Origin: Natronosalvus caseinilyticus
GTDB taxonomy: Archaea; Halobacteriota; Halobacteria; Halobacteriales; Natrialbaceae
DNA length: 64,000 bases
Direction: 5' to 3'
Assembly (NCBI RefSeq): GCF_017357105.1
Contig: NZ_CP071596.1
Location: 124,001-188,000, forward strand
The notes under the pieces are model-generated. The model was given only the letters and a program-made list of their open reading frames with translations, ran no database searches and was not told where the DNA came from. Below are positions 18,576 through 64,000 of this stretch, in pieces. A program made the position numbers and the translations under genes. How positions within the stretch are numbered: the stretch's first letter is position 1; each line of letters starts with the position of its first letter.

Positions 18576-18598
18576 CGAAGCCGCGGCCAGGATAGGCC

Positions 18599-19123: not shown

Positions 19124-19182
19124 TGACCACCGCTCGAGGAGTCAGCAAAAGACCCATAGCCCCAACGGTCATCGAAGCGAGT

Positions 19183-19683: not shown

Positions 19684-19689
19684 GGACCG

Positions 19690-20859
19690 ATGCCAGACGC
19701 CGCTCACGATCCGACGACGGACGACGGATCGAACCCGAGAGCCGACGCCGACGCAGCGAGAGAGCGACTCGAGCGCGCCAGCAAGCGTCTCGAGGCCGCG
19801 AAGACGGCGATCGACGAGGCCGGCGGCCGCGAGACCGTCGAGACGGGAGCCGACGCCTACCGAACGGCCGCGAGGCTCCTCGACCGGTACGTCGACCTGG
19901 CGACCGGCACGGGGCGGGAGACGTTCCAGCACTACATCAACCTCGAGGGCGAGTACTCGACGCTCGTCGAGGGGTTACCCGCGGACCTCCCCCACCGCGA
20001 GGCGTTCGAGGCGTCGTTCGAGGCCGTCGACAGGCGTCGACTGCACGAGTCGGACTTCGAGCGAGCGGAAGCGGCGCTCGAACCGGCCGAGCGCTTCGTC
20101 GACCTGCTCGAGGAGTACGCGGCCGCCGAGGAAGAACTGACGCTCGCGAGGAAGGCGGCGATCGACCAGGTCGACGCGCTCGAGGACGAACGCTCGAATC
20201 TGCAGCGACTGCGCTCGCTCGCCGACGCCGACCTCGAGGCCCCGGTGGAGCGCCTTCGAGACCCCATCGATGCCTACAACGAGTCGATCCGGGAGGCCTT
20301 CGAGTCGTTCCTGTACGACCAGTCTGCGCGGACGGTGTTCAACCTGCTCGAGCGCAGCCGACTCCGGCCGTTCGTTGACTTCGAGACGCCGCCGCCGGAG
20401 CTGCGCGAGTACGTCGAGGAAAACGACGCGGGCACCTACTCGGTCCCGGAACTCCTCGAGTACGCGGGGTACTCCCGGTCGAAACTGGATCACTACGTCG
20501 ACGACCCGGACGAACTCAAGCGGCGAATCGCCACACGCCAGACGTACCTCGAGCGGATCGACGCGACGCCGCTGACGCTGTCGTGGCCGCCCGCGGACGC
20601 GACGAGCCTGCGGTACGCGATCCGGGACCGACGACCGCTGGTCGAACGCGTCGGCGGACAGGAACTCGTCGAGTGCCTGCTCGCGGTGCGGGAACGAACG
20701 TTCGACGACGACTACGACCGCCTCCAGACTGCCGCGAGCGCGCTCGACCAGCTCTCGGCGGCCGAACGCGAGCGCCTCCAGAATCGGGACATCGATGCGG
20801 AACTCGAGGGGGTTCGAGACGCACGCGAGGAGCTCGAGGAACTGCTCGCGGACGGGTAG
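19690..20859 (+). CDS. Coiled-coil protein of unknown function
   Basis: The 389-residue protein is highly charged and almost wholly helical. It has long heptad-like Glu/Arg/Leu stretches at residues 15-60, 115-185 and 335-385, and no membrane segment or nucleotide-binding motif. A central segment (about 205-300; PELLEYAGYSRSKLDHYV) looks like a small globular insertion. I recognise it only as a conserved haloarchaeal type. It starts 6 bases after the hisI stop on the same strand, so the two are probably cotranscribed, although a functional link to histidine synthesis is not evident. Confidence 0.75.
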   Translation: MPDAAHDPTTDDGSNPRADADAARERLERASKRLEAAKTAIDEAGGRETVETGADAYRTAARLLDRYVDLATGTGRETFQHYINLEGEYSTLVEGLPADLPHREAFEASFEAVDRRRLHESDFERAEAALEPAERFVDLLEEYAAAEEELTLARKAAIDQVDALEDERSNLQRLRSLADADLEAPVERLRDPIDAYNESIREAFESFLYDQSARTVFNLLERSRLRPFVDFETPPPELREYVEENDAGTYSVPELLEYAGYSRSKLDHYVDDPDELKRRIATRQTYLERIDATPLTLSWPPADATSLRYAIRDRRPLVERVGGQELVECLLAVRERTFDDDYDRLQTAASALDQLSAAERERLQNRDIDAELEGVRDAREELEELLADG

Positions 20860-21021
20860 CCCTCGCAGACAGATAGCCCTCGAAGGCGGCGACCGTCGTG
20901 ACTCGAGAGCAGGGACCGTTATAACTCGAAGTGGCCAACGGTCGTAATCGAACGCGACGACCGGCGCACCGATCCGAGACGCGCACGAGGATTTTTGGCC
21001 GCAACGGTCGACGCTACGGAC

Positions 21022-21426
21022 GTGAGTCGACACCTCCTCGTCGCCATGGACGACTCCGAGCCGGCCAGAGCGGCCCTCGAGTACGCACTCTCGACGTTTC
21101 CCGAGTCAAGAGTGACGGTGATCCACGTCGTCGACAATCTCGAAGCGGGCTACGGCGGCGGACCGACCGCCGAGGCAGCCCGCGACCAGGACGAACCCGC
21201 GTTCTTCGGAGACGTCCGCCAACTCGTCGAAGGCCACGCGGGTGACGTCGCACTCGAAGTGCTCGAGGGGACCCCCGTCGACGCTATCCTCGAGTACGTG
21301 CGCTCGAACGACGTCGACGGCGTCGTCGTCGGAAGTGAGGGCCGTTCCGGCGTCTCGCGGATGCTGCTGGGAAGCGTCGCCGAGGGCGTCGCCCGGCGGG
21401 TCGAGGTTCCGGTGACAATCGTCTGA
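21022..21426 (+). CDS. Universal stress protein (UspA family)
   Basis: The 134-residue single Usp domain contains LLVAMDDSEPARAALEYAL at its start and the ATP-binding loop VVVGSEGRSGVSRMLLGSVAEGVARRV near residue 100, matching the G-2x-G-9x-G-(S/T) pattern of ATP-binding Usp proteins. The role is a general stress response. The exact partner is unknown. The start is GTG at 21022, which begins the first beta strand. The upstream extension to 20995 adds nothing conserved. Confidence 0.93.
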   Translation: MSRHLLVAMDDSEPARAALEYALSTFPESRVTVIHVVDNLEAGYGGGPTAEAARDQDEPAFFGDVRQLVEGHAGDVALEVLEGTPVDAILEYVRSNDVDGVVVGSEGRSGVSRMLLGSVAEGVARRVEVPVTIV

Positions 21427-21582
21427 CTCGAGGCCGGAATCCGATTTGTCGTCCCCCTTCGGGTCGTTCCGATATGGTCGGGTTTCGAGGGAGGGCGAAT
21501 GCTATATATTTTATAGTAATACCGTTCTCGAGCGGCGGGCGAAACCGGCGTTCCTTTTTATCCGCAATCAAAATGACGGGTG

Positions 21583-22059
21583 ATGGACGACCGCGTGGGG
21601 ACGACGCTTCACACCGGCCTGTTACTCGCCGTGACCGGCGCGCTCGCGTGGCTCTCCGGACTCCCCCTCCTCTTTCCGAGCCTGGGCCCCTCGGCGTTCG
21701 TCCTCGCACTCTTCGAACGCAGCGAGGCGACCCGTCCGCGGCGCGTCGTCGGCGGCCACCTCATCGGCGTCGTCGCCGGATTGGTCGCCTATCACGTCGT
21801 CGCCGGCGACTCCGCTATGACCGTGGCCTACGAGCCAGCCTCGCTCGAGGGACTGCGCCTGGCGACCAGCGGCGTACTCGCGACGACGGCCACTGCAGGC
21901 GGCATGCTCGCGACGGACACCCGCCACCCGCCCGCGTGCGCGACCACGCTAATCGTCTCGCTGGGGCTGCTCTCGACGGTCCTCGAGGGAGCGTTTATCG
22001 TGCTCGCGGTGGCGGTGCTGGTCGGGGTTCATCGGTCGATACTGGCTGTCACCAGCTGA
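21583..22059 (+). CDS. HPP-family integral membrane protein
   Basis: The 158-residue protein has four hydrophobic segments. Its first half carries PLLFPSLGPSAFVLALF and its second TRHPPACATTL, the His-Pro-Pro motif that names the HPP family. HPP proteins are four-helix membrane proteins, and some plastid and cyanobacterial members have been linked to nitrite transport. The function here is open. The ATG at 21583 follows an AT-rich promoter-like stretch (CCTTTTTATCC) about 25-30 bases upstream. It converges with the HTH_10 regulator at 22092. Confidence 0.85.
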   Translation: MDDRVGTTLHTGLLLAVTGALAWLSGLPLLFPSLGPSAFVLALFERSEATRPRRVVGGHLIGVVAGLVAYHVVAGDSAMTVAYEPASLEGLRLATSGVLATTATAGGMLATDTRHPPACATTLIVSLGLLSTVLEGAFIVLAVAVLVGVHRSILAVTS

Positions 22060-22091
22060 CGGCTTCCGCGTACTCGAACGCGTCTAGTCGC

Positions 22092-22739
22092 TCACTCGAG
22101 CGCGCTCTCGACGAGGCGCCGCTCGGCCTTCCGCAGGTGTTCGCCGACAGTGCTCGGCGCGCACTCGAGGACGGCCGCGAGGTCCTCGTGGCTCGCCGTT
22201 CGCGGCACGTCGTAGTAACCGTGCTCGAACGCGGCGGCCAGAACCTCACGCTGACGAGCGGTCAACGATCGGCCGCCCGCGAGCCGATCGGCGCGGTACG
22301 GGCCGACCTCGAGGATCGTCGCCTCGAGCGGGTCCGGAAGGTCGGTGAGCGTCGTCGAAAGGTCCGTCTGGGTGCCAACGACTGTCAGCTCGACGCTCCC
22401 GTCCGCCCGGAACGTCGCCGGCAGCAGGACGACGAGGCTCTTTCGGGTGAGTCGCTCTCGAAGCGCGCCGACCGCCGGCGGTGCGCGGAACCTGACGTAG
22501 GCGAACACCGAGCCCGCCTCTGCACCGGCGACGTCCCACTCCAGGACGTCGGACTCGGCCTCGAGGACGGCACGGACGGCCGCCGCGGTGCCGTCGATCG
22601 AGAGCGAGTACGTCGGCGTGTCCGTGTCAGCGACGCCGCCAGCGAGCAGGTGAACCGCGTCGACGTCCTCGTGGGCCGCCAGGGCCGTCACGGGCGTCTC
22701 CGGACCCGACGCAGCGATACGAACGCGAGCGTAGTGCAT
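22092..22739 (-). CDS. Bacterio-opsin-activator-type HTH_10 regulator
   Basis: The 215-residue protein has an N-terminal BAT-like sensor region (about 1-150) and a C-terminal HTH_10 domain beginning LTARQREVLAAAFEHGYYDVPR near residue 162, with the recognition part LECAPSTVGEHLRKAERRL. These are transcription factors. A strong TATA element (22761-22770) lies 26 bases before the ATG at 22739, so the message is probably leaderless. The gene diverges from the cytochrome P450 at 22824, with 84 bases between start codons, and is a candidate regulator of it. That link is inference from position. Confidence 0.9.
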   Translation of the reverse strand: MHYARVRIAASGPETPVTALAAHEDVDAVHLLAGGVADTDTPTYSLSIDGTAAAVRAVLEAESDVLEWDVAGAEAGSVFAYVRFRAPPAVGALRERLTRKSLVVLLPATFRADGSVELTVVGTQTDLSTTLTDLPDPLEATILEVGPYRADRLAGGRSLTARQREVLAAAFEHGYYDVPRTASHEDLAAVLECAPSTVGEHLRKAERRLVESALE

Positions 22740-50714: not shown

Positions 50715-50882
50715 TTACAGGTCGCGGGGCTGGACCGTCTTCCGGTCGTTGTCTTCGGCACGTCGGGCAGCGTCCTCGAGCAGCTCGGACACTTCCTCGT
50801 CGAGTGCTTCGTAGAAGTCCGAAGCGACGTTCTTGTCATCGAGTGCTTCCTTTACGGCGGCTTTGACGATAAGGTCTGCCAT
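50715..50882 (-). CDS. DUF1931-type small histone-fold protein
   Basis: The 55-residue acidic protein begins LIVKAAVKEALDDKNVASDFYEAL and ends AEDNDRKTVQPRDL, the pattern of the DUF1931 histone-like family. The sequence matches one histone fold (three helices). A TATA element (50909-50916) is centred 30 bases before the ATG at 50882, so a leaderless transcript is expected. It may bind DNA or act as a chromatin-associated factor; this is inference from the fold. It is the last ordinary core gene before the tRNA fragment. Confidence 0.85.
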   Translation of the reverse strand: MADLIVKAAVKEALDDKNVASDFYEALDEEVSELLEDAARRAEDNDRKTVQPRDL

Positions 50883-51470
50883 ACAGAATACCCGTTCCCG
50901 TTTCCCTACTATAAAGGTTCTGTTTGTGAGCGGCGAATTCGGGCTCGAGCGGCCCGATAGACCGTCTTTACGCACACCACCCACCAGAAAGTATATGTCG
51001 AAGGAAGTTCCGGCGGGCGCTGGACCCCCTCGAATCGGCCCAAACTGCCCTCGAACGCGCTCGCGCGCGCTCTCGAGACGACCTATCGGTATCCCAGCCG
51101 AAGAAGGGTGGCCCCGTTCACCGCGTTCGTACGACCTCGGGGTGACCCTGCCGTCGACGGCGGACCGCATCGACAAGGCACAGAGGCGGCAAGACGACGT
51201 TCCAAGCGACAGTCGGAACCCGGGATTGATCGGGAACGATGCGCTGTTCGCGGGTTGGTTCGACCTGGTCGGGAACTCGATGCTCCTATACGCGACGATA
51301 TCGGTTCGCGAAACCGATTCGGAGGTCGGCTGGATCGTCGGCAGTATCATTCAGCTGGCTCAGAATCGAACGACCGACGAATCGCTCATAGCACTGGACA
51401 GCGGCTATCGGGGTCGTTATCTACGAACTGAAGGAGAATTCACTCGTTCGAGAAGTACCAACGCGAGAAG
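50883..51470. other. Mostly unassigned intergenic region before the att site
   Basis: The DUF1931 promoter (TATA 50909-50916) lies at the left end. A weak frame (50995-51477, plus strand, 160 codons) opens at ATG 50995, but its first half is low-complexity and it runs into the tRNA fragment. Its C-terminal half (SMLLYATISVRETDSEVGW) is more protein-like and could be a remnant. I do not call it a gene. Confidence 0.4.
50909..50916 (-). promoter_or_regulatory. TATA element of the DUF1931 gene
   Basis: ACTATAAA on the plus strand (TTTATAGT on the coding strand) is centred 30 bases before the ATG at 50882. Confidence 0.6.
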
Positions 51471-51517
51471 AGCCTAGGCCGGGATTTGAACCCGGGCTCT
51501 CGTCCTTACCAAGGACT
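51471..51517 (-). pseudogene. 3' half of tRNA-Thr(GGT); likely att site of an integrative element
   Basis: Reading the minus strand, this fragment contains an anticodon arm with loop TTGGTAA (anticodon GGT), a five-base variable region, a perfect T arm (CCGGG, TTCAAAT, CCCGG), the seven bases CCTAGGC of the acceptor 3' strand and discriminator T. The 5' acceptor strand (GCCTAGG) and the D arm that should precede it do not occur upstream, and no intron explains this: the sequence that follows at 51518 onward does not contain a 5' half. Such 3'-tRNA copies mark the far end of elements that integrate into tRNA genes. Confidence 0.8.
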
Positions 51518-51840
51518 TCTTCGAGATCGCCTCAAACCGGCAACTTCACGGCCACTATCGCCGGTTCTCGACCTGACTCGTACCTTCTCATCCCGAAATA
51601 ACTACACGGACCTATAAGTAAGCGATGATACACTCTCGGGAGCCACAGGAACACGTACCGGAAGATAACCTACAGAACCAGCCGTAGCCGCTGAAACTAA
51701 TATTACCGACTGGTCTTGGTCAGTTCGAGGCTTGACGAGCACTTGTCGAAAAGCGGGGTACTCCCCAGTACAGGAATGGGTACTGTCTCATGAGCATACA
51801 GCTAAGTAATATATCCCTGGATAAGTAAACCGGTAAACAA
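51518..51840. other. Gene-free left end of the island
   Basis: There is no coding frame. The right end holds a TATA-like element (TAATATAT, 51807-51814) that serves the 499-residue gene. A possible hairpin with arms ACCGGC and GCCGGT (51537-51566) lies next to the att fragment. Confidence 0.5.
51807..51814 (+). promoter_or_regulatory. TATA element of the 499-residue island protein
   Basis: TAATATAT is centred 30 bases before the ATG at 51841. Confidence 0.55.
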
Positions 51841-53340
51841 ATGAAACAGCGAGATGTCGTATTGTTCGCTCTCTACGCTCTTCTTGGGATGCTGGTTTTC
51901 GTTACGCGATTACTGACTCTCCCACTCGAAGTAACAGCATTGATTGCTCTCATCGCGGCTGTAAGTGTCCCTACAGCCCACCGGGTAGAAAACATCTACA
52001 AACGTAGGCGTGATCAGCAAGCCCACCGAAAGCGTATCTCTGAACTGGTGAGCCGTGTAAATGAACGTGCCTCCGAGATTGGTCTTCAAATAGTGGATCA
52101 AGGCGAGATCATCGACACCTTGGTCAAGGATGACGAGGAACCGACGCTCGAAAAGATATATGAGAGTTACATTTACGAGCGTTTCGGAGAGCTACCAGAC
52201 TATCAGCAGGAGATTCTCCTTATCCTTCTCCTTTCGCGCGAGGTTGACTCAAGTAAACGCCCTATCGAGCAAGCACGGTTGAAAACACAGATTGCATCGC
52301 TATTGTCGGATTTCAATCTTGGTTCCCTCGATCCGCGAACCATTGAGTTACTGGGCGCATACGACAAGATTGAGCATAAAGGAATAGAACGGACGGAGGT
52401 TACAGCACTATTCGACCACGAGCCAGAGAATCCCCGTGATTTGGCCTTAGAGTTCGCTACTGACTATGGGACTACTGACCAACTTGCGATTGTCCTGTTC
52501 AATGATCGCGAGCGTTCAACTGAACTCAGGAAAACACTGGGTCGTCTAATCGCCCGTGGGAAGATCGACACTGAGACGGTCAACCGTGAGACCGCTGAAC
52601 GAATCAAAGACGAGATGGAACAGATCGGAGATGATGCCACGAAGTATCTGGTTTTCTCCAGGAGAATGCACTATGATGATGCTTTCGAGGAGGCTATAGA
52701 CCGATTCCCACACTTGCGTATTGGTACGAAATACCCCGAAAATGGGTTTCCTGATGCCGCGGAGTATATGCGGGTCTATATGATCTATCCAGAGCACGAC
52801 TATGGAAGTGCCGATCGCTTCTTAGAGGAAGCACTGAAGCCAATGGTGTCTGAGGAAATCCTCGATGAACACCAAGATGCATTTGTTGCCGTGATGCCGC
52901 TCGAACTTTCGAGGCTATCAATCTATCCTGAACACGAAAACGTTGACGAGCACCTGTCGGGGACCCACGAAGCACTGATGTTCCTGAAAACAGGCGCAAG
53001 CGAGGATCTATCAGAAGTCGTCTCAGACCGCGTTGTGAGTGACGTGGGCATCTCGGAACTACTGGCCGTTCTCCCCTTCAATGTCATTACACCCGACATC
53101 AACGAACATGAGAAGGAACTAATCATAGAGCACTACGACGAACTCCAAGATCGATTTGGTGTATCTGAGCTGTTCGATTGGGCGGATATTAATCCCGAAG
53201 ACTTGGGGAATGCCCTTGCTGAAATCGATAACGATGTAGAAGATGAACGGTGGGAAGAACTTGCTGAGACGATTGTGGAGAGAGCTGAGAAATATTCAAC
53301 CGCGACTTACGGTGAGGAGCCAACCTCTGTCTCTCGATAA
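51841..53340 (+). CDS. Membrane-anchored protein of unknown function
   Basis: The 499-residue protein starts with two hydrophobic stretches (VVLFALYALLGMLVFVTRLL and VTALIALIAAVSVPTA, residues about 6-48), then a basic/charged coiled-coil-like segment (about 52-85), and a long soluble part that is mostly helical and acidic. No nuclease, ATPase or phosphatase motif is visible. Its internal pattern (repeated helices with DIGISELLAVLPFNV-type hydrophobic segments) is compatible with a helical-repeat scaffold. The codon use is AT-richer than the core. I cannot assign a family. Its position at the element's edge makes it an accessory gene. Confidence 0.85.
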   Translation: MKQRDVVLFALYALLGMLVFVTRLLTLPLEVTALIALIAAVSVPTAHRVENIYKRRRDQQAHRKRISELVSRVNERASEIGLQIVDQGEIIDTLVKDDEEPTLEKIYESYIYERFGELPDYQQEILLILLLSREVDSSKRPIEQARLKTQIASLLSDFNLGSLDPRTIELLGAYDKIEHKGIERTEVTALFDHEPENPRDLALEFATDYGTTDQLAIVLFNDRERSTELRKTLGRLIARGKIDTETVNRETAERIKDEMEQIGDDATKYLVFSRRMHYDDAFEEAIDRFPHLRIGTKYPENGFPDAAEYMRVYMIYPEHDYGSADRFLEEALKPMVSEEILDEHQDAFVAVMPLELSRLSIYPEHENVDEHLSGTHEALMFLKTGASEDLSEVVSDRVVSDVGISELLAVLPFNVITPDINEHEKELIIEHYDELQDRFGVSELFDWADINPEDLGNALAEIDNDVEDERWEELAETIVERAEKYSTATYGEEPTSVSR

Positions 53341-53360
53341 GGGCGATACATTGGAACCTC

Positions 53361-53867
53361 CTAACTGACGATAGATTCGCTGTCGGGGATCGGTTCCAGC
53401 GCGGAAACAGGCACCAGATAGTTGTAATGGCCAAACTTCGATTTTGTTCGGTCTCTATCGAGGACCGTCTCTTTCGTCGCCGCCCCTAAGAACGTCACCG
53501 TAGTGCCGTCCAGATGCCCGAGGACATAATAATCAGAGTTGACGCGGCCTTCCTTCACCGGTAAGGCGTACGGCTCCTTCTGGCTCGTCTTAACATCAAC
53601 TGTCCGCTCAACCCCATCAATAGAGACCTCAAAATCCACGCCCTCGTCCGTCCACCCAACGAGTTCAGTATTGATCTGAAGATCAGCATAGATGGCAAAC
53701 GCCATCTCACCCATAAGTCCAACCTCATGCCGGTCCTCAGGATTCACACCCCAGGTCTCCGACTCGTTATCCCAATCCACGTATTCTTCGAACGACTGGT
53801 TTCGCTCCTTCGCGATTTCACGGACCTGTCGAACATATCGGGGAGGTATATCTACAGAGACCGTCAT
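53361..53867 (-). CDS. PD-(D/E)XK nuclease-like protein
   Basis: From the ATG at 53867 the protein has 168 residues. A helical N-terminus (IPPRYVRQVREIAKERNQSF) precedes the nuclease-like core: Glu54 in GLMGEMAFAIY, Asp78 in DEGVDFEV, and Asp91-x-Lys93 in TVDVKTS. This spacing of E, D and DxK after a beta-hairpin is the PD-(D/E)XK superfamily arrangement. Members cleave DNA or RNA. A longer frame (start at 53924) adds 19 residues. It converges with the 499-residue gene, ending 20 bases beyond that gene's stop. It may be a solo restriction or nicking enzyme. Confidence 0.75.
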   Translation of the reverse strand: MTVSVDIPPRYVRQVREIAKERNQSFEEYVDWDNESETWGVNPEDRHEVGLMGEMAFAIYADLQINTELVGWTDEGVDFEVSIDGVERTVDVKTSQKEPYALPVKEGRVNSDYYVLGHLDGTTVTFLGAATKETVLDRDRTKSKFGHYNYLVPVSALEPIPDSESIVS

Positions 53868-54007
53868 CCGTGAATCCCGGCCCCCGTTCGGAAGCTCGTG
53901 AGTTCCTTGAGGACCATATACCAACTCACGCTGAACGTCATATCTGCGAAGAGGTGGTCGGAGACCAAAACCGTGAGGGACGCCCAGTTTCGAGTTCAGA
54001 CGACCGC

Positions 54008-54024
54008 GGCTGTTGGCATGAATC
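54008..54024 (+). repeat. 17-bp direct repeat, left copy
   Basis: GGCTGTTGGCATGAATC is identical to 57682-57698. The two copies flank five genes (54183-57632). The adjacent bases differ on both sides. Confidence 0.8.
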
Positions 54025-54153
54025 GCCTTTTTTAAATGGTTGAAACAACCGGTTGGTGAAGACTGTGTATTGATCGCTACTCTTTAGATTCTGACAACGG
54101 CCAGTAATCACTGGGCTCCGGAAATCGAACCAGTTAGGTAACTCTCCACGAAG

Positions 54154-54161
54154 TATTTATG
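54154..54161 (+). promoter_or_regulatory. TATA element of the small membrane protein gene
   Basis: TATTTATG is centred 25 bases before the ATG at 54183. Confidence 0.55.
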
Positions 54162-54182
54162 ACCGGATCTGAAAACTAAAGT

Positions 54183-54434
54183 ATGACTGATGAGTTCGCC
54201 GGCCCCCGGAAGCTGCGGTACTTTCTATACCTGCTACTGATAGTCGTCTTCGGGGCTGTTTTTTCTACGATACTCGCAGATTTCTACGGGATCACGTTTC
54301 TCGAACCCCTACTGTGGTGGTTCGTAGAGAATCCGATGGTTCTGTTTGAGCTTGCAGGAGTCTTCTCAATCATCGCCCTGATCCTCATTGTGGCAATAAA
54401 GGCGCTGAAACTGGCCGATAACAGCGGTTTCTAA
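54183..54434 (+). CDS. Small two-helix membrane protein
   Basis: The 83-residue protein has two hydrophobic segments (about 14-38, FLYLLLIVVFGAVFSTILADF; and about 52-78, MVLFELAGVFSIIALILIVAIKAL) and no motif I recognise. It is the first gene inside the 17-bp repeats and precedes the MBL gene by 165 bases, so it could be a separate transcription unit. In defence islands, small membrane proteins are often effectors or holins; nothing here proves that. Confidence 0.65.
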   Translation: MTDEFAGPRKLRYFLYLLLIVVFGAVFSTILADFYGITFLEPLLWWFVENPMVLFELAGVFSIIALILIVAIKALKLADNSGF

Positions 54435-54599
54435 TTCGCTGTTGCCACAACCAGAGAGAGTCTTGTGGATAGTGGACGGACTCTCTCGGACAGAACGCCT
54501 GTTGATGTCAACGGCGAACCCAGCTCACAAGATCAGATGACCACTTTCACTCCGGTTGGGCCATTTACTTAGACATTCCCGATAACTATCTTCTAAGAT

Positions 54600-55604
54600 A
54601 TGGTCCGTTACGATCATCTTGATGTCCATTTCCTCAATGTCGGTCACGGCGACTGTACGATCATTCACCACCCGAAGAGCGAGAAGCGCAAGGAGGGAAG
54701 GGTGTCAATCATCGATATTAACGATTGGGATCATCTAAAGCCAGAAGAGACGGATCAGTTTATTGCCGGTCTGAGCTCATACTTACAACAACAGTCCTCA
54801 TCTGGATATTTTGAGAAGCAAATCTCAGAAGAAGAGTACGCAGAAGAGTATCTCGATGATCCAGTGGAGTATTATCAAGAAGCCTTCTCAGGTCTGAAAA
54901 ACAAGGTTTGGCGTTTCATCTCTACTCACCCAGATATGGATCACCTCGCTGGTTTGAAACAGTTTCACGAGGAGATCGGGTTCGATGTTATGTGGGATAC
55001 GCCCCACTCAAAAGAGATGGATACTGGTGATGGATGGTACGAAAAGTTCAATCGAGAAGATTGGTATCGATATGAAGCAATCCGAGGCGGAGAAACGGAT
55101 GTGAACAATATCAACCCCAGAAGAGAATCTCAAAAGAACTTCTGGGAACAGGACAATATACAGATACTACACCCATCGCACTCGTTTGTCGAGGAGATTG
55201 ATGAACAGTCGTCGGGATATAATGATGCCAGCTATGTGCTGAAACTCACTCACGGAAATCAAGCGATGCTGTTACCTGGTGATATAGAAGAAGACGCTTG
55301 GGAAGAGATACTTGACTACTGGGGACCAGACGTGTTGTCAGATGTGAATATCTTAAAAGCATCTCATCACGGCCGGAAGAGCGGTTTCCATCGCGAAGCG
55401 ATCGAAGAAATGGACCCAGATTTAGTTGTGGTTAGTGTCGGCAACAAGGACGAAAGCGATGGATACGGCCTCTATTGGGATGCTTGTGGTGATGACACCA
55501 ATATAATATCCACACGTCAGTATGGGACTGTAAGAGCCGTTTCAACCGGTAGAAGAACAATGGTTAGTTGTGCCGAGCCAGACGGGATCTTTGACTTACC
55601 CTGA
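54600..55604 (+). CDS. ComEC-like MBL-fold hydrolase
   Basis: The 334-residue protein is a metallo-beta-lactamase-fold protein of the ComEC/Rec2 group. It starts LDVHFLNVGHGDCTII (the common FxxVGxGDxxxI opening). The metal motif is THPDMDHLAG with His110, Asp112, Asp114 and His115, followed by LPGDIEEDAWEE near 227 and LKASHHGRKSGFH near 255. The ComEC family includes phosphodiesterase/nuclease-like domains. Here the domain stands alone without a transporter part. It is 2 bases upstream of a membrane protein gene, so the pair is one operon. The AT-rich codon use is clear. Confidence 0.88.
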   Translation: MVRYDHLDVHFLNVGHGDCTIIHHPKSEKRKEGRVSIIDINDWDHLKPEETDQFIAGLSSYLQQQSSSGYFEKQISEEEYAEEYLDDPVEYYQEAFSGLKNKVWRFISTHPDMDHLAGLKQFHEEIGFDVMWDTPHSKEMDTGDGWYEKFNREDWYRYEAIRGGETDVNNINPRRESQKNFWEQDNIQILHPSHSFVEEIDEQSSGYNDASYVLKLTHGNQAMLLPGDIEEDAWEEILDYWGPDVLSDVNILKASHHGRKSGFHREAIEEMDPDLVVVSVGNKDESDGYGLYWDACGDDTNIISTRQYGTVRAVSTGRRTMVSCAEPDGIFDLP

Positions 55605-55606
55605 CT

Positions 55607-56299
55607 ATGGTCCAGAGTCAGTTTTCAGCATACGATTTTATCGCAGATATTACACCAGGAGCTGTAGCCATCGGGCTGTCACTTACTCTGCTTCCAGAGG
55701 GTCATTTCATTCTCGATGAGGCTCAAGAAGTGGGTGTTGCTGCTGGGCTTACGTTTGTTATTTTTGCATATGTGGTTGGACACTTGATCCAGGCCATCGC
55801 AAGTCCGATTGACACCTACTGGGCTAAATATAGAGGATTTGCGTATCCATTTGAGAACGAACTTTCAGGAGAGGATTCAGATTCTTCATCCGATGATGAG
55901 GGCTCTCTTGATCAAGTATCGGTGAATGAAAAGTTCACTTCTGAGGTTGAGTCCCATTTCTCGGGCGAGTTTAGTAATACAGATATCTTTTTTCTCACCC
56001 AAAGTCGTCTCTGGAACGAGGATATTGGTCGTATGCGACGATTCCAAGTTCTCTACACGTTCTTCCGAAGTCTATGGGTAGTTTTCGCGATCGGTACAGT
56101 TCTTCACGTCTTGATACTCGTTGCGAAGTGGTTTGAATATTACAACTCGTTCTTGGGGACAGAGGATTCGATAGTTCTGATTTCAGGACTTACCGTTGCG
56201 GCACTTTTGGCTTACTATCGACGGAAAAAGATGCATAAAAAGATGGCCAAAACGATGGTTATTGATTTCTATGCTAATATCCTTGTAAAAGAAGACTGA
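55607..56299 (+). CDS. Multi-pass membrane protein, operon partner of the MBL protein
   Basis: The 230-residue protein has about four hydrophobic helices: two near the N-terminus (ITPGAVAIGLSLTLLP near 16; GVAAGLTFVIFAYVVGHLI near 43), two in the second half (FFRSLWVVFAIGTVLHVLILVAKWF near 153; IVLISGLTVAALLAYY near 188), and a Ser/Asp/Glu-rich loop at about 88-105. Its basic end carries RRKKMHKKMAKTM. I do not recognise a family. The start is 2 bases after the MBL stop, and an obligate functional pair is plausible. Confidence 0.8.
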   Translation: MVQSQFSAYDFIADITPGAVAIGLSLTLLPEGHFILDEAQEVGVAAGLTFVIFAYVVGHLIQAIASPIDTYWAKYRGFAYPFENELSGEDSDSSSDDEGSLDQVSVNEKFTSEVESHFSGEFSNTDIFFLTQSRLWNEDIGRMRRFQVLYTFFRSLWVVFAIGTVLHVLILVAKWFEYYNSFLGTEDSIVLISGLTVAALLAYYRRKKMHKKMAKTMVIDFYANILVKED

Positions 56300-56453
56300 G
56301 CCAACACTATCGCAGAAAATAATCTGACACTTTCATTGGTTGAACTCATGGGTTTGGTTTGGTACACTGGAGGGAAAGCGGAGAAATCACGTTAGCTAAC
56401 TTCCGCTCACCTATGACCAGAGACTTCATTTCGTCCCAACGAAATATCTCGCT

Positions 56454-56879
56454 ATGGAGATCGGACTCGTGAGCTGTACGAAGAGTAAACGCGAGCAAGC
56501 CGCAGAACCCGCTGACCTCTATATTCCGTCGACGTTCTTCAGTAAGGCGCGTGAGTACGTCGAAGCCAACCACGACCGCTGGTATATCCTTTCCGCGAAA
56601 CACCATCTACTCGATCCGTCTGGGCCACCTATCGAGCCATACGATGAAACACTAACTGGCGCACCAGTCGCCCGGAAGCGGGAGTGGGCCGAAGTAGTAT
56701 ACGTTCAGCTCCAGGAGCAAGGTCTTCTCGACGCCGGCAATCGACTGGTGTTTCACGCGGGACGAGACTACTACAGCGAACTCATCCCGTTGCTGGACGA
56801 CACGCCAGTCGAGGTGGAAACCCCTACTGATGGCCTTCTGTTCGGCGAGACGCTCTCGTGGTACAACGAACACCTCTGA
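56454..56879 (+). CDS. DUF6884-like protein
   Basis: The 141-residue protein begins with LVSCTKSKR and continues with ADLYIPSTFFSKAREYVE, RWYILSAKHHLLDP and the PYDETLTG segment. This is the pattern I associate with the DUF6884 family, short cytosolic proteins of unknown biochemical function often near DNA-modification or nuclease genes. The Cys/Lys at the start and the His pair suggest a catalytic site, but none is established. It lies 42 bases before the GIY-YIG-like gene on the same strand. Confidence 0.7.
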   Translation: MEIGLVSCTKSKREQAAEPADLYIPSTFFSKAREYVEANHDRWYILSAKHHLLDPSGPPIEPYDETLTGAPVARKREWAEVVYVQLQEQGLLDAGNRLVFHAGRDYYSELIPLLDDTPVEVETPTDGLLFGETLSWYNEHL

Positions 56880-56921
56880 AAATCCCGAGCAATTTTATGT
56901 CCCACCTCTGAAGGGAGTGGT

Positions 56922-57632
56922 ATGTCGCGTCGCTCAGATCTCGATAACCTCTATGAGCTCCTCGACCGTCTCGAAGCAAACGTAGGCGGTAAACAACGAC
57001 TCAAGAACTGCACTGGATACATGGATTGGCCGAAGAGAGGCATCTACTTTTTCTTCGCAGACGATGAAAGGCGTGAGTCGACAGACCAGCCCCGGCTCAC
57101 CCGTATCGGCACTCACGCAGTTTCATCCGGCTCCAGCACGTCGTTGTGGAATCGACTCCGGACACATCGTGGAGCGAACAGAGGAACCTACGATGGCGGG
57201 GGAAATCATAGGGGGTCGGTGTTCCGCAAGCGGATCGGCGAAGCTCTGATCGAGCGAGAGGGGTTTCACGACGAATACCCATATTGGGGTAACGGATCCA
57301 GTGCGGATCGAGATCGACGGCTTGCCGAGTTAGAACACGAACGCCGCGTAAGCCAGTACATTCGCGACCTCCCGTTCCTCTGGGTCGACGTCGAAGACGA
57401 GCCCAGCCCGGAGAGTGACCGAGCCTACATCGAGCGGAACGCAATCGCTCTCGTCAGCAACTACCAGAAGGACTCACTCGACCCTCGTGACGACGACTGG
57501 TTGGGACGCGTCAGCCCCCGCCACGAGATTAGCGACTCGGGACTATGGAACATCAACCACGTCGGAGAAGAGTACGACACGGCGTTTCTGGACCGGTTGT
57601 CTGACGCTGTAGAGAAGACATCGGATCCCTGA
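56922..57632 (+). CDS. GIY-YIG-like nuclease-domain protein
   Basis: The 236-residue protein resembles a GIY-YIG domain in its first 100 residues: WPKRGIYFFFAD near 37 (the GIY strand), LTRIGTHAVSSGSSTSLWNRLRTHRG near 56-82 (the YIG-equivalent strand is RIG, followed by the helix with conserved Arg). The rest (about 95-236) is charged, with no recognised domain. GIY-YIG enzymes nick DNA. The downstream Glu normally needed for catalysis could be in FRKRIGEALIERE near 100. It is the last gene inside the 17-bp repeats. Confidence 0.7.
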   Translation: MSRRSDLDNLYELLDRLEANVGGKQRLKNCTGYMDWPKRGIYFFFADDERRESTDQPRLTRIGTHAVSSGSSTSLWNRLRTHRGANRGTYDGGGNHRGSVFRKRIGEALIEREGFHDEYPYWGNGSSADRDRRLAELEHERRVSQYIRDLPFLWVDVEDEPSPESDRAYIERNAIALVSNYQKDSLDPRDDDWLGRVSPRHEISDSGLWNINHVGEEYDTAFLDRLSDAVEKTSDP

Positions 57633-57681
57633 GAAAATGGCGATCTGACGGCTCTCTGGCCGTCGTAGCGTTCTCCCTGGA

Positions 57682-57698
57682 GGCTGTTGGCATGAATC
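57682..57698 (+). repeat. 17-bp direct repeat, right copy
   Basis: GGCTGTTGGCATGAATC is the exact copy of 54008-54024. It lies between the GIY-YIG-like gene and the M48 peptidase gene of the restriction operon, 3.67 kb from the left copy. Confidence 0.8.
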
Positions 57699-57800
57699 CG
57701 CGCGGTGCCGGAATCCACATTCTCGCATCGGATTTGGGCCTGTTGCTTAACCAGCAGGCACTAAACGGCGCCAGGCGACCCAGATGGAACTGAGCGGTAG

Positions 57801-58544
57801 TCAGAGAGTCAGAGAGTTCCCGTTTACCCGGAGCCATTCGCGGCGATCCTCGTAATCCGGAATGAGAGCACCAACCGTGTTCCAGAACGCGCCAGAGTGC
57901 TCATTATGTACTGAATGGGCCAACTCATGAGCGATAACGTAATCTTGGATTCGAACGGGTGCCCGGATCAACCGCCAGTTGAGGCGAACGGTTCCGCTGT
58001 CGTATTCACCCCACCGACCGTCGATCTCTCCGACCCATACTGGCACATCGTCGAGCCCCAACCTCGACTCAAAACGCGACACTCGGTTCGGAAGTTCTTC
58101 CTCCGCACGCTCAACAAACCAGTCAACGACAGCTTGGTGCTTTCGACGAACGCTTACGTCGTCTACATCTCCATCGAACCGGTGGACGCGAAGAGTGAAC
58201 GTCTGCTCGTCAAACGATAACCTCGGTTCGGGGACATCCGCCTCAACGGCCTTCAGCGGATACTGTCGTCCCCGATACTGGAGTTTCTCCCCGCTCATGT
58301 ACTCCTTCGGATACGGCGGTCCTTCTTGCTCTTTGAGTCCGTAGAGTTTCTGAAGCAGCCACTCTTGGCGAGACTCAAGCACGTCCTCAACATCTGCTAC
58401 CGTCGCGGTCATCGGGGCTGTAACGGTCAACTCTAAGGACTTGTCGATTGACAGTCCTATTGTCTCCCGATTTTCGGACCAATCGACCGTGTAGGGCACG
58501 ACCGTTTGGCCGATATGATGTCGACGCTGTAGGCGTTCGCTCAT
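57801..58544 (-). CDS. YgjP/M48-type metallopeptidase (restriction-operon associated)
   Basis: The 247-residue protein is a YgjP-like (DUF45) M48-clan peptidase with zinc motif HELAHSVHNEH at about 206-216 and the upstream GRWGEYDSGTVRLNWRLIRAP characteristic of YgjP. The start at 58544 overlaps the hsdR stop by 4 bases, so it is cotranslated with the restriction subunit. YgjP-type genes often sit beside type I restriction genes. A role in turnover or control of the endonuclease is inferred, with ClpXP-like control of HsdR in E. coli as the only known precedent for proteolytic alleviation. Confidence 0.9.
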   Translation of the reverse strand: MSERLQRRHHIGQTVVPYTVDWSENRETIGLSIDKSLELTVTAPMTATVADVEDVLESRQEWLLQKLYGLKEQEGPPYPKEYMSGEKLQYRGRQYPLKAVEADVPEPRLSFDEQTFTLRVHRFDGDVDDVSVRRKHQAVVDWFVERAEEELPNRVSRFESRLGLDDVPVWVGEIDGRWGEYDSGTVRLNWRLIRAPVRIQDYVIAHELAHSVHNEHSGAFWNTVGALIPDYEDRREWLRVNGNSLTL

Positions 58545-61501
58545 TGGTAATGATTTCGCGCGAGTTCGATGACGCGGTTGGTTAGCTCCCGCCGCTCGTC
58601 ACCCGAGATGTCGATATCAGACCGATACAACTCTCCCGTCACTTCCTTCCGCATCCGGTTCTGCAGCTGCGTCTTCTCCTTCCATTCAACCTTCGTCACG
58701 AACTCCTCAACGGTTCCAACTAAGTCAGCGGTGAGCTCGATGAGCTCTTCCTCCTCAGCATCGTGCTTGTCCAGCACGTCTTCAAGGGCGTGATAGAACG
58801 AGAGATCGGTCTCGTCGCGGAGCCCTTTGTTCCGCGCCTGCTTGTCGCGGGAGCGAATCTCGTCCATCAACGCCCGAAGCTCCTCGATAGTCTCGCGCTC
58901 GTCGTATCGCCCTTCTCGGTACTTTTCAATGAGCTCTTCGAGCCGATCTCTGAGAGAACCGTACTGCACTGGATCTTCGTCGAACCGAACGTTGAGCTCG
59001 TGCTTGATTGCATTTTGCATCTCACTCGCCCGAGCTTCGTCGCTTTTTAAGCCTTCAAGTTTCGCGTCGTACTCGACTTCCTCCATAATCGAGACGGGTT
59101 CATCGTTCAAAACCTCGATGCCCCGTGACGTGATGTGGTCCTGAATCAACTCGCGGACCTTTGCTCCCGCCCCTTCGAGGTTCATCGTCTCATCGCGGTA
59201 CCGCTCCTTCGCCTTTCCATAGATCGTGCTGAGACGCTCAAGATCCTCCCGGTAGGGGTTCGCCATGGGATCCGGGAGGACAACGTCCATCAGTTGCGAA
59301 AACCGCTTAAACGCGTTCTTGAACTCGATTCGGCGGTCGTCCGGTTCAAGCGACTGAACGCACTGTTCGACGTCATCGAGATCGTGGAAAAACGAGACCG
59401 CCTTGCTGTGGGCCGCCTCAAGATCAGGCTGTTTGTCCTCGACCGGCACCATCGCCCGCTCGACATCTTTGGAACTGAACATCGCGAGCGCCTCCTTCAA
59501 TTCGTCCGAGACGCCGTAGTAGTCGATGATAAGCCCGTGGGTCTTCTCCTCGAACGGCCGGTTCACACGAGCGATCGCCTGCAACAGGCTGTGCTCCCGT
59601 AGTGGCTTATCGAGGTACATCACCTGAGCCACCGGCGCGTCGAAGCCTGTCAGGAGCATGTCACAGACGATAAGCAGCACAACCTCGCCGTTCGGATCGA
59701 CGAACGATTCCTTGTACTGGCTCTTCTCGGAGTCGCTGGGAGTCCACTTCTTGATGTGTTCAGGGTCATTGTGCCCCTCAGAGATAATGACTCGTGACTC
59801 CGGCCCGTTCAGGTTGTCAAGGGTTTCTTTGTACCGAATCGCCGCCTCCTTGCTTGTGGTGACGACCATGCCCTTGAACGGCTCAGGCACGTCGTTCTCG
59901 TAGTGTTCGATGATGTCCAGTGCGACTCGGTCGATTCGAGGTTGTGCCTCCGCGAGATCTTGCGTGCGGGCGTATCGCTTCTGGATCTCCGCCTTTTCTT
60001 CGTCCGTCTTGTCCGAGAAGATGCGATCGAATAGGCGATCGAGCGTTTCGCCTTCGAGGTGGATGTCGGCAAGACGTCCCTGATACAGGATCTCGACCGT
60101 CGCGCCATCCTCCAGTGACTGATCGATCGTGTACGTGTCAATGTAGTTCCCGAACGTCCGGCGGGTGTTGCGCTCGTCTTTCTCGATGGGGGTTCCGGTG
60201 AACCCAACGTAGAAGGCGTTCGGGAGCGCCGTCCGCATATTGTTCGCGAACTCCTTGTCCTGCGTCCGGTGGGCCTCGTCGGCCATCACGTAGACGTTCT
60301 CGTTACGGGAGAGCACCGGGAAGTCCTCTTCGTCGTCCGTGGTCTGGAACTTGTGAATCAGCGTCGTGATCGTCTCGCCCGCGTCGTACGAGAGCCGATC
60401 GCGGAGATCCTCGATGCTCTCGGCCTTTTTCGGATTTGGGAAGCCACAGCGTTCGAACGTTGCGTGAATCTGGTCGTTGAGCGCCCGGCGGTCCGTGACT
60501 AAGAGAAGTGTCGGGTCGTCCTCGTTTCGGCGCAGCTTCAGCGCGAGAAAGAGCATCGTGAGCGACTTACCGGAGCCCTGGGTGTGCCAGACGACACCGC
60601 CCTGTGCCTCGCGCCGTCCGCGCTTGTCGATCCGTTCGAGTGCCTTCCGGACCGCTCGGTACTGCTGATACCGAGCGACCATCTTGATTGCGCCGCTCTG
60701 TCGGTTCTCGAACACTGTGAAGTGCCGTAACTGGTCAAGCAGGCGCGAGGGCTCGAACAACGCATAGAGCATCCGGTACTGATCCGGGAGATAGTCATCG
60801 AGGTCGAACAGCTCGATTAGTTCGTCGTCTTCCAGCGGGTAGGCGTCCCGCCAGGGCTTGTACTGGTCTTTCGGTGTTCCGTACGTGCCCATAACCGCCC
60901 CCTCCATCCAGGCCGCGACCGAAAACTGGTTGTACCGGAACAGCTCCTCGGCCCCCTCCGACTCTCCGTCGCGTTCGTTTTGATAGCGGGTGAGCTGATC
61001 AAGCGCCTCCGAACGCGGCTCTGGGATCTGGGGACTCTTGCACTCGACGACGCCGAGCGGGATTCCGTTGACGAACAGCACGATATCGGGCTTGACGACC
61101 TCGACCGGTCCCTCAACCCGGAACTGGTTGAGCGCGAAGAAGTCGTTGTTCTCGGGGTTCTGGTAGTCGATGTACTGGACCGTCTGGTGCTGCTTGCCGT
61201 GTCCGCGGTTCTGTTCGACAGAGATGTGGCGGACGAGCTTCTCGTGGATCTGCTCGTTTTCGTCCATCGTGCTCGTCCCAGCGACCTGTGTGATCTTGTG
61301 GACGGCCTTGTTCAGGTTGTTCTCGTTGAGCCACGGATTCAGGCGCTTAACTGCATCGCAAAGACGCGGTTCGAGTACGGCCGAGGACTTCGTCTCCCGA
61401 GGATCGATCCAAGTGGAGCGTTGCTGGTCGACGACCTCCCAACCGAGTTGCTGGAGTGCGTCAAGGGCGGGACGTTCAGACTCGACGTACTCGTTGGGCA
61501 T
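58541..61501 (-). CDS. hsdR: Type I restriction enzyme R subunit
   Basis: HsdR is the ATP-driven translocase and nuclease of the type I complex. The 986-residue protein has an N-terminal PD-(D/E)XK nuclease with Asp139 (KPDIVLFVNG), Glu153 and Lys155 (VVECKSP), then helicase motifs: Walker A HTQGSGKSL (Lys312), DEAH in VMADEAHRTQ near 413, FTGTPIEKDE near 434, motif V-like VCDMLLTGFDAPV near 640 and QAIARVNRP near 676. The C-terminal third is helical (subunit contacts). It overlaps the M48 gene by 4 bases, and 2 bases separate it from hsdS. Confidence 0.97.
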   Translation of the reverse strand: MPNEYVESERPALDALQQLGWEVVDQQRSTWIDPRETKSSAVLEPRLCDAVKRLNPWLNENNLNKAVHKITQVAGTSTMDENEQIHEKLVRHISVEQNRGHGKQHQTVQYIDYQNPENNDFFALNQFRVEGPVEVVKPDIVLFVNGIPLGVVECKSPQIPEPRSEALDQLTRYQNERDGESEGAEELFRYNQFSVAAWMEGAVMGTYGTPKDQYKPWRDAYPLEDDELIELFDLDDYLPDQYRMLYALFEPSRLLDQLRHFTVFENRQSGAIKMVARYQQYRAVRKALERIDKRGRREAQGGVVWHTQGSGKSLTMLFLALKLRRNEDDPTLLLVTDRRALNDQIHATFERCGFPNPKKAESIEDLRDRLSYDAGETITTLIHKFQTTDDEEDFPVLSRNENVYVMADEAHRTQDKEFANNMRTALPNAFYVGFTGTPIEKDERNTRRTFGNYIDTYTIDQSLEDGATVEILYQGRLADIHLEGETLDRLFDRIFSDKTDEEKAEIQKRYARTQDLAEAQPRIDRVALDIIEHYENDVPEPFKGMVVTTSKEAAIRYKETLDNLNGPESRVIISEGHNDPEHIKKWTPSDSEKSQYKESFVDPNGEVVLLIVCDMLLTGFDAPVAQVMYLDKPLREHSLLQAIARVNRPFEEKTHGLIIDYYGVSDELKEALAMFSSKDVERAMVPVEDKQPDLEAAHSKAVSFFHDLDDVEQCVQSLEPDDRRIEFKNAFKRFSQLMDVVLPDPMANPYREDLERLSTIYGKAKERYRDETMNLEGAGAKVRELIQDHITSRGIEVLNDEPVSIMEEVEYDAKLEGLKSDEARASEMQNAIKHELNVRFDEDPVQYGSLRDRLEELIEKYREGRYDERETIEELRALMDEIRSRDKQARNKGLRDETDLSFYHALEDVLDKHDAEEEELIELTADLVGTVEEFVTKVEWKEKTQLQNRMRKEVTGELYRSDIDISGDERRELTNRVIELARNHYQ

Positions 61502-61503
61502 TG

Positions 61504-62805
61504 TTAGTCTGTGTTGACGCGGACTGTGCCGGTGAGGAGATCCTGCATAAGGCCGCGTTTTAGTTCCTGTAAATCCTCTTTCCTACCTTTTTCCTCATCT
61601 ATTTTTTTCTGTGCACATCCAATGATGTTTGCAATTCGTTCTTGTTCTTCCGCTGGGGGAACAGGTAGTTGGAACGCCTCAAAATCCGCCTTGGTAATAT
61701 GGACTTGACCTGCAGACCCTCCAACCATCGTCTTAAGCAATCTTAGGTGTTGGTTTAGTGAAAATGCGAAGAATCGCTTATCCAACTCTTTCTTAGGACG
61801 AAGATTGTAGATGTGTTGATTAAGATATGCATCATCTCCTGACCAAATGTATGCGCCGAGTGAGGTCTTGATATTTCCCGCCCAGCAGAATAGCAAATCT
61901 CCGACTGTGACATGGTACTTGTCGTCTACCTCGAAGTTTGCGTAATTGGTTTCAGCTTCTGCGCCGGGCCGCAGGTCTTGGATTCTAATAATCTGGGTTC
62001 CCTCTTCTTCCCACTCTTCAGTCTTGAAGGCACGCCCATTGATTGCCTCAAATAACTGGCCACAGGGCTCCATATCCCAATGGTCTGGAATCTGTAATGT
62101 TCGAGGGCCAATCTGGATCTCTTGAGTGGAGCCATTAGATAGTCCTCCAATCAAAAGATCTTGCATTAGACCCTGCTTCAACTCCTTCGCCTCCTCGATA
62201 ATTTTATCCGTCTGTTGGATCTGCTCGTCGACCGTCGAGAGGACATCGGCGATTCGGCGCTGTTTGGGGAGTGGTGGGAGTAAGACCTCTGAATTTTTGA
62301 TTTTTGTGACTGTAAGTCGAGAGATTCCGGTCCCACTCATCTTTGACTGCATTACCTTTTTGAATAGCGGCCAGTTGAGATGATGAGTTAAAAAGTCTGG
62401 GTCAAGACGGTCCCGATCAGTCCGAATTAGTGCGACACTCGATAGTAAACTAAACTCGAAATCGAGCGTGTTTTTCCGCGCAATTCCAGTATTTGCTCCG
62501 TCTTTGACGTAGAGAACATCCCCAAGCTGTGGGTCACAGCGAGAGTAGATTTTCTTATGATCTTCTTCGGAAATGTACCCAATATCATCGAGGCGGAACC
62601 CATTCTCGCGGATGTTTTTGGAGGTTATATAAGGGTACCCCTCATCTACCGTATCTGGTGAATTATGTGTCCCATCCGTTATCTTTTGACAAACCGAATT
62701 TGTCTTGACTACTTCCCATTTTTCCGGAATTCTCACCGTCTTTGGGCCTAAATGAATCTCTTTGTACCCCTCTCGAACCTTTGATTTTTCCACAGCCTCG
62801 CTCAT
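61504..62805 (-). CDS. hsdS: Type I restriction enzyme specificity subunit
   Basis: HsdS determines the DNA sequence recognised by both modification and restriction. The 433-residue protein has the standard two-fold layout: each half is a target recognition domain followed by a helical spacer. The first half opens LGPKTVRIPEKWEV and its spacer reads LPKQRRIADVLSTVDEQIQQ (near 180); the second opens IGPRTLQIPDHWDM (near 231) and its spacer reads PAEEQERIANIIGCAQKKID (near 383). Each spacer ends in a LMQDLL-type stretch. GC is lower than in hsdR and hsdM, which is usual for horizontally exchanged specificity genes. The start overlaps hsdM by 4 bases. Confidence 0.96.
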   Translation of the reverse strand: MSEAVEKSKVREGYKEIHLGPKTVRIPEKWEVVKTNSVCQKITDGTHNSPDTVDEGYPYITSKNIRENGFRLDDIGYISEEDHKKIYSRCDPQLGDVLYVKDGANTGIARKNTLDFEFSLLSSVALIRTDRDRLDPDFLTHHLNWPLFKKVMQSKMSGTGISRLTVTKIKNSEVLLPPLPKQRRIADVLSTVDEQIQQTDKIIEEAKELKQGLMQDLLIGGLSNGSTQEIQIGPRTLQIPDHWDMEPCGQLFEAINGRAFKTEEWEEEGTQIIRIQDLRPGAEAETNYANFEVDDKYHVTVGDLLFCWAGNIKTSLGAYIWSGDDAYLNQHIYNLRPKKELDKRFFAFSLNQHLRLLKTMVGGSAGQVHITKADFEAFQLPVPPAEEQERIANIIGCAQKKIDEEKGRKEDLQELKRGLMQDLLTGTVRVNTD

Positions 62806-64000
62806 ACGTACTCCAATTCCTCCATATACCGCTGCAGTTCTTCGTCGGTCTCCCGGCGCTCCTCGGCCAATTTATCCAACTCCTGTAGCCTCTCGCTTAC
62901 GTCGATCGGTTCCTCGGGTTCGGTCGTATCGACGTATCTCGGCACGTTTAGGTTCCAGTCGTTCTCCTCGATTTCCTCAAGGTCAACAAGCCGACTGTGA
63001 TGGTCCTCTTCGCGCCCAGTCAGGAACGTCTCGGCGAGGTACTCAACGCCCTCGTCGGTAAGCTGGTTCTGATTCGAGAGTTCTTCGAACACCTGTACGT
63101 CTGACTCCCGAAGCTTCTGATCCTCGGCGTAGATGAACTGAACTTTATCCCCTCTCTCCTCGGGCTTGTCCTTGTTCAGTATCAGGATACACCCCGGCGA
63201 CGAGGTGTTGTAAAACAGGTTCTCCGGTAGCGCGATCACGGCCTCGACGAGATCGTCCTCCAGGATCGGCTTACGGATTTTCTTCTCCGATCGCGAGCGG
63301 AACAGCACGCCGTTGTCCATGACGACGCCCGCCTTTCCGGTCTCGTTGAGCGAGGCGATCATGAGCTGAATCCACGTCCAGTCGCCGCGGTTCGACGGCG
63401 GGAGTCCGTACGGGAAGCGGTTGTACGGCTCGTTGTCCTCTACCCAGTCCTTGTTCCATTCCTTCTGATTCCACATCGGGTTCGCGATTACCCGATCGAA
63501 CACTTCCAATTCGTCATGCTCGGTGACGCGCTTGGGGTCTGTAATGGTGTCGCCCTTCTCGATCTTTGCGTCGTACAGCTCATGCAGCAGGACGTTCATC
63601 TGGCCGATCGCCCACGTGTTCAGGTTCCTTTCCTGGCCATACAGCGAGAAGTCGTTCATGTCTCCACCCGACTCGCGGATGTGCTCAGCAGAGTAGATGA
63701 GCATCCCCGCTGACCCACAACAGGGGTCGTAGACGCGATGACCCGGTTTAGGGTTGACGCACTTAACGATGAGACGCACGACCGCTCGCGGTGTATAGAA
63801 CTCGCCGCCCTTCTTGCCGGCGTCGTCGGCGAATTTGTTGATGAGGTACTCGTAGGCCCGCCCGAAAATATCGGGGTCCTTGAGGTCGGCATTCCGGTAG
63901 CGATGTTTGTCGAAGTGTGAGACCAAATCCGAGAGCAGAGCGTCCGGGAGACGCTCTTTGTCGTTGAAATCGACTGTGGTGAGCACGCGGTCGGCGATGG
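62802..64000 (-). CDS. hsdM: Type I restriction enzyme methylase subunit, 5' part missing (window edge)
   Basis: HsdM is the N6-adenine methyltransferase subunit. The visible 394+ residues contain FGRAYEYLINKFAD, the SAM-binding DPCCGSAGML and the catalytic NPPF-type motif as NPMWNQKEW, plus ENLFYNTSSPGCILIL. The N-terminal helical domain is outside the window, and the frame is still open at 64000. A GTG at 63986 is only an internal codon. It is the first visible gene of the operon, followed by hsdS (4-base overlap) and hsdR. The replaced motif residues (M-W for P-F) are a common variant in type I enzymes. Confidence 0.95.
   Translation of the reverse strand, partial: IADRVLTTVDFNDKERLPDALLSDLVSHFDKHRYRNADLKDPDIFGRAYEYLINKFADDAGKKGGEFYTPRAVVRLIVKCVNPKPGHRVYDPCCGSAGMLIYSAEHIRESGGDMNDFSLYGQERNLNTWAIGQMNVLLHELYDAKIEKGDTITDPKRVTEHDELEVFDRVIANPMWNQKEWNKDWVEDNEPYNRFPYGLPPSNRGDWTWIQLMIASLNETGKAGVVMDNGVLFRSRSEKKIRKPILEDDLVEAVIALPENLFYNTSSPGCILILNKDKPEERGDKVQFIYAEDQKLRESDVQVFEELSNQNQLTDEGVEYLAETFLTGREEDHHSRLVDLEEIEENDWNLNVPRYVDTTEPEEPIDVSERLQELDKLAEERRETDEELQRYMEELEYV

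Follow-up and report, generated by a model that had tools for sequence, protein, structure and literature searches.

The tRNA fragment at positions 51471 to 51516 of the window is almost certainly the original 3' end of the host tRNA-Thr(GGT) gene, displaced by the insertion of an integrase-bearing 30.6-kb mobile defence island. The window is the whole stretch of 64,000 nucleotides that was analysed (C1:124001-188000, where C1 is NZ_CP071596.1), from the 4.24-Mb genome of Natronosalvus caseinilyticus (G000). The sequence-only reading had taken the fragment for the boundary of an integrative element, and the pair of attachment sites (att), the recombinase and the comparison with relatives all agree with this assignment. 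The features that define the two ends are the following.

50715..50882, minus strand: conserved host ORF, 55 aa from its ATG, a left-flank marker collinear with the relatives G002 and G007; histone-fold-like by eye only, with no Pfam match for its over-long version
51075..51470, no strand: host DNA that borders the att copy on the left, partly common to G007, up to the att edge
51471..51516, minus strand: displaced 3' part of tRNA-Thr(GGT), tRNA nt 27-72; exact 46-bp repeat, the host-side att copy, left end of the element
51517..64000, no strand: left 12.5 kb of the 30.6-kb integrative element; GC 0.535, free of CTCGAG, identity with the G035 and G231 elements inside the att copy
C1:204678-205928, minus strand: tyrosine recombinase, over-long TTG ORF (PF00589, 3.8e-15), at the right end of the element

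The minus strand at 51471-51516 reads GTCCTTGGTAAGGACGAGAGCCCGGGTTCAAATCCCGGCCTAGGCT and comprises the anticodon arm GTCC-TTGGTAA-GGAC (loop TTGGTAA), the variable region, the T arm and the acceptor 3' strand, while the D arm and the 5' acceptor strand are absent and ARAGORN reports no tRNA in the window. This is the tRNA-Thr(GGT) fragment as it had been described from the letters; its location at 51471-51517 was also right, but the repeat is one base shorter. A search of the host genome with the fragment gave one other perfect match, C1:206032-206077 (46/46 bp, same strand, E 1.9e-17), and the next full-length match is a tRNA-Ala gene at 87%. The perfect match belongs to an intact tRNA-Thr(GGT) (C1:206032-206103, minus strand), of which it forms the 3' part; this gene is the sole intact copy found in the host genome and is located 30.5 kb to the right of the fragment. 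Identity between the two att copies ends at both edges of the 46 bp. An intact gene sharing its 3' sequence had been predicted to the right, together with a nearby tyrosine recombinase, and both are present: 46 bases are shared, and the recombinase adjoins the intact gene. The proposed orientation, with host DNA on the left and the element on the right, is correct.

The integrase ORF lies about 100 bp from the 3' end of the intact tRNA, and its R, K, R, H and Y residues are invariant across the aligned relatives. Alignment of the relatives favours the ATG at codon 18 of the over-long ORF as the start, which would give a protein of 399 aa, because the corresponding ORF of G035 has a stop (TGA) at codon 4. 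The TGA noted inside the relatives' frames thus lies ahead of the probable start codon. Among the viral contigs of IMG/VR no relative of the integrase was found, and a search for repeats at both ends of the element gave nothing convincing as arm-type sites. The interval from the tRNA 3' end to the integrase gene has conserved stretches, e.g., CCTTCTCAGGAGAG and GTCTTGCGATTC (L012:13878-14031, and the same region of L013-L021), which may be arm sites for the integrase or parts of a promoter. One of these loci, L013 (PUOX01000072.1), is filed under a Mollicutes MAG and carries a haloarchaeal integrase (96%) with tRNA-Thr(GGT); it is most likely mis-binned. The host has another integrase of the wider family, 40% identical, at C1:1801154-1802203, near a weak partial tRNA match (C1:1802479-1802547), and this region is perhaps another integrated element.

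The position of the boundary was assessed by comparison with other genomes. The element of G035, which belongs to another genus, opens inside its att copy with 146 bp at 98.6% identity to the G000 element, and in G231, from another family, the first ~690 bp are 79% identical; outside the att copy the DNA of the three genomes is unrelated. Because related elements match just inside the att copy and not outside it, the element boundary is fixed to the base. On the host side, the left flank is 90% identical over 17 kb in G002, where the tRNA-Thr gene lies 1.7 kb from the flank without an insert of the G000 kind; the intervening 1.7-kb segment is unrelated and contains a beta-propeller gene. The congener G007 has the left flank in common to the last base before the att copy, followed by a 14-bp att remnant, AGCCTAGGCCGGGA; past the att edge the two genomes diverge. 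It carries at the same tRNA-Thr(GGT) a different insert of ~26 kb (C1:2096194-2122236 of that genome), with its own, different integrase at the left, fragment-bearing end and the BREX genes PglZ and BrxL near the right end with the intact gene. Host synteny across the insert is seen with both genomes, so that the proposed comparison with relatives gave a positive outcome; among the relatives, none was found with the exact G000 left junction fused to an uninterrupted tRNA, given the 1.7-kb segment of G002 and the insert of G007, and none had the fragment inside core genes. Since a congener carries BREX genes with a different integrase at this site, the tRNA-Thr gene may be a hot spot for the exchange of defence systems.

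The choice of target is consistent within the integrase family. All nine relatives in named genomes (integrase identity 66-97%) adjoin tRNA-Thr(GGT), and so do the close integrase matches among 293 genomes of the order (11/11); the two sets overlap, the second includes the G000 copy, and identity is at least 66%. The distance from integrase to tRNA is ~100-170 bp in most loci, with G298 rearranged. Integrases at ~40-45% identity are found mostly beside tRNA-Gly, tRNA-Glu or tRNA-Arg. Pairs of fragment and intact gene delimit elements of ~10-27 kb in seven other genomes (G035, 27.3 kb; G231, 26.5; G029, 18.1; G061, 13.3; G014, 12.4; G214, 11.4; G250, 9.9). These have the integrase family, the target and the displaced 3' fragment in common with the G000 element, but differ in cargo. 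The G035 and G231 elements also have left-end DNA in common with it. In four members of the group at ~71% identity (G014, G029, G061 and G214) the repeat is longer, starting at tRNA nt 17, and of these four only G214 is depleted in CTCGAG.

At 30.6 kb, the G000 element exceeds these related elements, which would fit a tandem array of at least two elements in one tRNA gene. This is very unlikely, given that there is no third att copy between the two, that a single integrase of the family is present, at the right end, and that the G035 element, whose two ends carry the same genes as those of G000, likewise forms one unit of 27 kb.

The composition changes at the same boundary. GC is 0.665 in the left host flank, 0.535 in the element, which runs past the window to C1:206031 (window coordinate 82031), and 0.664 in the right host flank. 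The left host flank (51.5 kb) has 282 copies of the hexamer CTCGAG, against 51 expected from dinucleotides (a 5.5-fold excess), and the right host flank (5.9 kb) has 33. In the 30.5 kb between the att copies the hexamer does not occur, against 17-20 copies expected from the element's own composition (Poisson probability, ~3e-8). When all 64 palindromic hexamers are ranked, CTCGAG shows the strongest depletion in the element and the strongest excess in the host. The drop in GC had thus been noticed correctly, and the rarity of CTCGAG to the right had been understated. In the group at 90-97% identity, observed over expected counts are 0/17.4 (G000), 0/18.5 (G035) and 1/14.5 (G231), with a pooled probability of ~7e-21. 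Expected counts are from a first-order model for most elements, and those for G000 and G035 are similar under other orders. The smaller G214 and G250 elements also have no CTCGAG (6.6 and 5.3 expected), while no depletion is seen in the G014, G029 and G061 elements, nor in the unrelated G007 insert (51 against 13 expected). In Halobacterium sp. NMX12-1 the motif CTCGAG is methylated (PMC11556058); it is also listed among the predicted restriction-modification motifs of halobacteria (PMC6471742) and is lacking in halovirus Hardycor1 (PMC7911831). The simplest reading, at which these counts hint, is that the sites were lost through restriction in past hosts. Zero CTCGAG against a strong host excess provides a usable marker of foreign DNA.

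The genes of the element within the window are the following.

51841..53340, plus strand: 499-aa protein with an N-terminal hydrophobic stretch; no Pfam match, gene start kept in the G231 element
54600..55604, plus strand: MBL-fold (ComEC-like) hydrolase, candidate defence gene (PADLOC PDC-M48B, 6.5e-19)
55607..56299, plus strand: membrane protein (Csx27-like match, 1.9e-9)
56454..56879, plus strand: DUF6884 protein, 86% in its G035 counterpart
56922..57632, plus strand: PDC-M57B candidate defence protein (1.5e-76), 82% in its G035 counterpart
57801..58544, minus strand: YgjP-like metallopeptidase, follows hsdR
58541..61501, minus strand: HsdR, type I restriction subunit, 95% identity to HsdR of plasmid pHGLR3
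61504..62805, minus strand: HsdS, type I specificity subunit, 60% identity to pHGLR3 HsdS
62802..64000, minus strand, 5' end outside the window at C1:188364: HsdM, type I methyltransferase, 520 aa, 93% identity to pHGLR3 HsdM

From left to right, this order is continued after HsdM by a NucS-C nuclease-like protein, two PDC-S11-like proteins (one with DUF4268), small DUF6908, DUF6166 and SWIM proteins, a 716-aa winged-helix protein, other proteins of no assigned family and the integrase. The genes hsdM, hsdS and hsdR lie together and encode a predicted type I restriction-modification system. Because it carries this operon together with candidate defence genes, the element is best read as a mobile defence island. 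The 716-aa protein has a P-loop-like motif (by eye) and matches plasmids; no match was found in phages, nor a solved-structure relative except to the winged helix, and a role in replication would be only a guess. Conjugation genes (VirB4/VirD4-like, relaxase), as expected of an integrative conjugative element, were not recognised in the element.

The integrase itself raises the possibility of a viral origin. It is 63% identical to the integrases of HF1-like haloviruses, in which a partial tRNA-Thr(GGT), its 3' part, is located directly upstream of the integrase. This attP was named in a 2020 paper on the group, which also reported two HF1-like proviruses at tRNA-Thr (Hafunaviridae; Hdep-prov1 and ELPmg-prov1), the same integration site as in this element (PMC7230728). 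A 27-kb stretch of the HF1-like virus HRTV-8 is likewise free of CTCGAG (0 against 18.1 expected). The element could on these grounds be a decayed HF1-like provirus and not a non-viral island. In contrast with these tailed viruses of ~75 kb, which have structural genes, no terminase, portal, capsid or tail family was recognised among the element ORFs searched, and restriction and candidate defence genes are found instead. The 716-aa protein has matches in plasmids and none in phages, and a non-viral backbone is common to the G035 element, which makes descent from such a provirus most improbable.

That the fragment is a dead tRNA pseudogene from local duplication or deletion, with a coincidental drop in GC, has next to no chance of being right: two tRNA-Thr(GGT) copies or nearby fragments do occur in some haloarchaeal genomes (G018, G009, G036 and G151), but here an exact repeat that stops at the anticodon stem has an intact partner gene next to an integrase, and two other hosts, G035 and G231, have the same DNA just inside the att edge. 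The pseudogene, the stacked pair and the decayed provirus were each set aside on this evidence, in favour of a single island inserted in the tRNA gene.

For such an insertion, the site of strand exchange could be mapped in relatives only, because in G000 the 3' halves of element and host are identical. The intact tRNA gene of G231 differs from that of its congener G157 at tRNA nt 46, 52 and 60, while the displaced fragment has the G157 sequence. With a host-type T arm in the fragment and another in the intact gene, it follows that the host 3' half was displaced and that the element supplied a new one. The repeat of G231 begins at tRNA nt 29, and strand exchange in this genome is apparently confined to nt 29-45, which cover the anticodon arm. 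A comparison of G214 with its congener G152 agrees, although it confines the exchange less narrowly. By analogy, a crossover in the anticodon arm would also be expected in G000.

In the mechanism that we propose, a circular element would bear a copy of the tRNA-Thr 3' half (attP) ~150 bp upstream of its integrase gene, and the integrase would recombine this attP with the chromosomal tRNA-Thr(GGT) in the anticodon arm. The element's copy would then complete the host 5' half, giving the intact gene at the right end (C1:206032-206103), and the host 3' half would be left behind on the other side, as the scar at window 51471-51516. The circular intermediate is inferred, and the element may still be able to excise, may protect its host and may be transferred between cells. 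The case documents the entry of a defence-gene island into a haloarchaeal chromosome with both ends mapped to the base.

The element has an intact tRNA at one end, a displaced 3' fragment in direct orientation at the other, a tyrosine integrase inside near one end and host synteny in relatives, as tRNA-integrated genomic islands do. Islander relies on the same standard signature, in which one end has a regenerated tRNA and the opposite end a fragment (PMC4383910). The islands so recognised have the regenerated tRNA, the displaced fragment and the tyrosine integrase inside, and nothing essential differs here. Since the att and integrase module was already published and the tRNA signature is standard, this is a known kind of element, a tRNA-integrated, defence-carrying element with an HF1-type integrase, of which it is a new example. 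In integrases of the SSV (suicidal) type, the att lies inside the integrase gene, which is split on integration. This is in contrast with the element, whose integrase gene is whole and whose att is ~100 bp outside the ORF. Haloarchaeal integrases of the SNJ2 type are, like that of the element, tyrosine recombinases that use tRNA 3' ends, but their att is a short acceptor-end sequence (13 bp in SNJ2; PMC8371274), while the repeat of the element has 46 bp and reaches into the anticodon arm.

A close parallel in gene order is found in Haloferax gibbonsii pHGLR3 (NZ_CP063208.1), where the att, integrase and hsdMSR-ygjP region spans 14621-22605. It includes the tRNA-Thr 3' part, as in the element (53 nt, 96%), an integrase 69% identical to that of the element, but broken or truncated, and hsdM, hsdS, hsdR and ygjP in the element's order (93, 60, 95 and 89% identity). 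The low value for hsdS against near-identical hsdM and hsdR suggests a swapped specificity subunit. Unlike the element, pHGLR3 is a 65-kb circular plasmid with transfer-like genes, and it places the att and integrase module on a circular replicon. Tentatively, and with somewhat less than even confidence, the element could be assigned to an unnamed non-viral haloarchaeal family that uses the HF1-type integrase and tRNA-Thr att, moves defence cargo between haloarchaeal families and has had every one of its CTCGAG sites removed by selection. If so, viruses and the islands directed against them would be rivals for one chromosomal site, and the integration module is in any event common to the island, HF1-like viruses and a plasmid.
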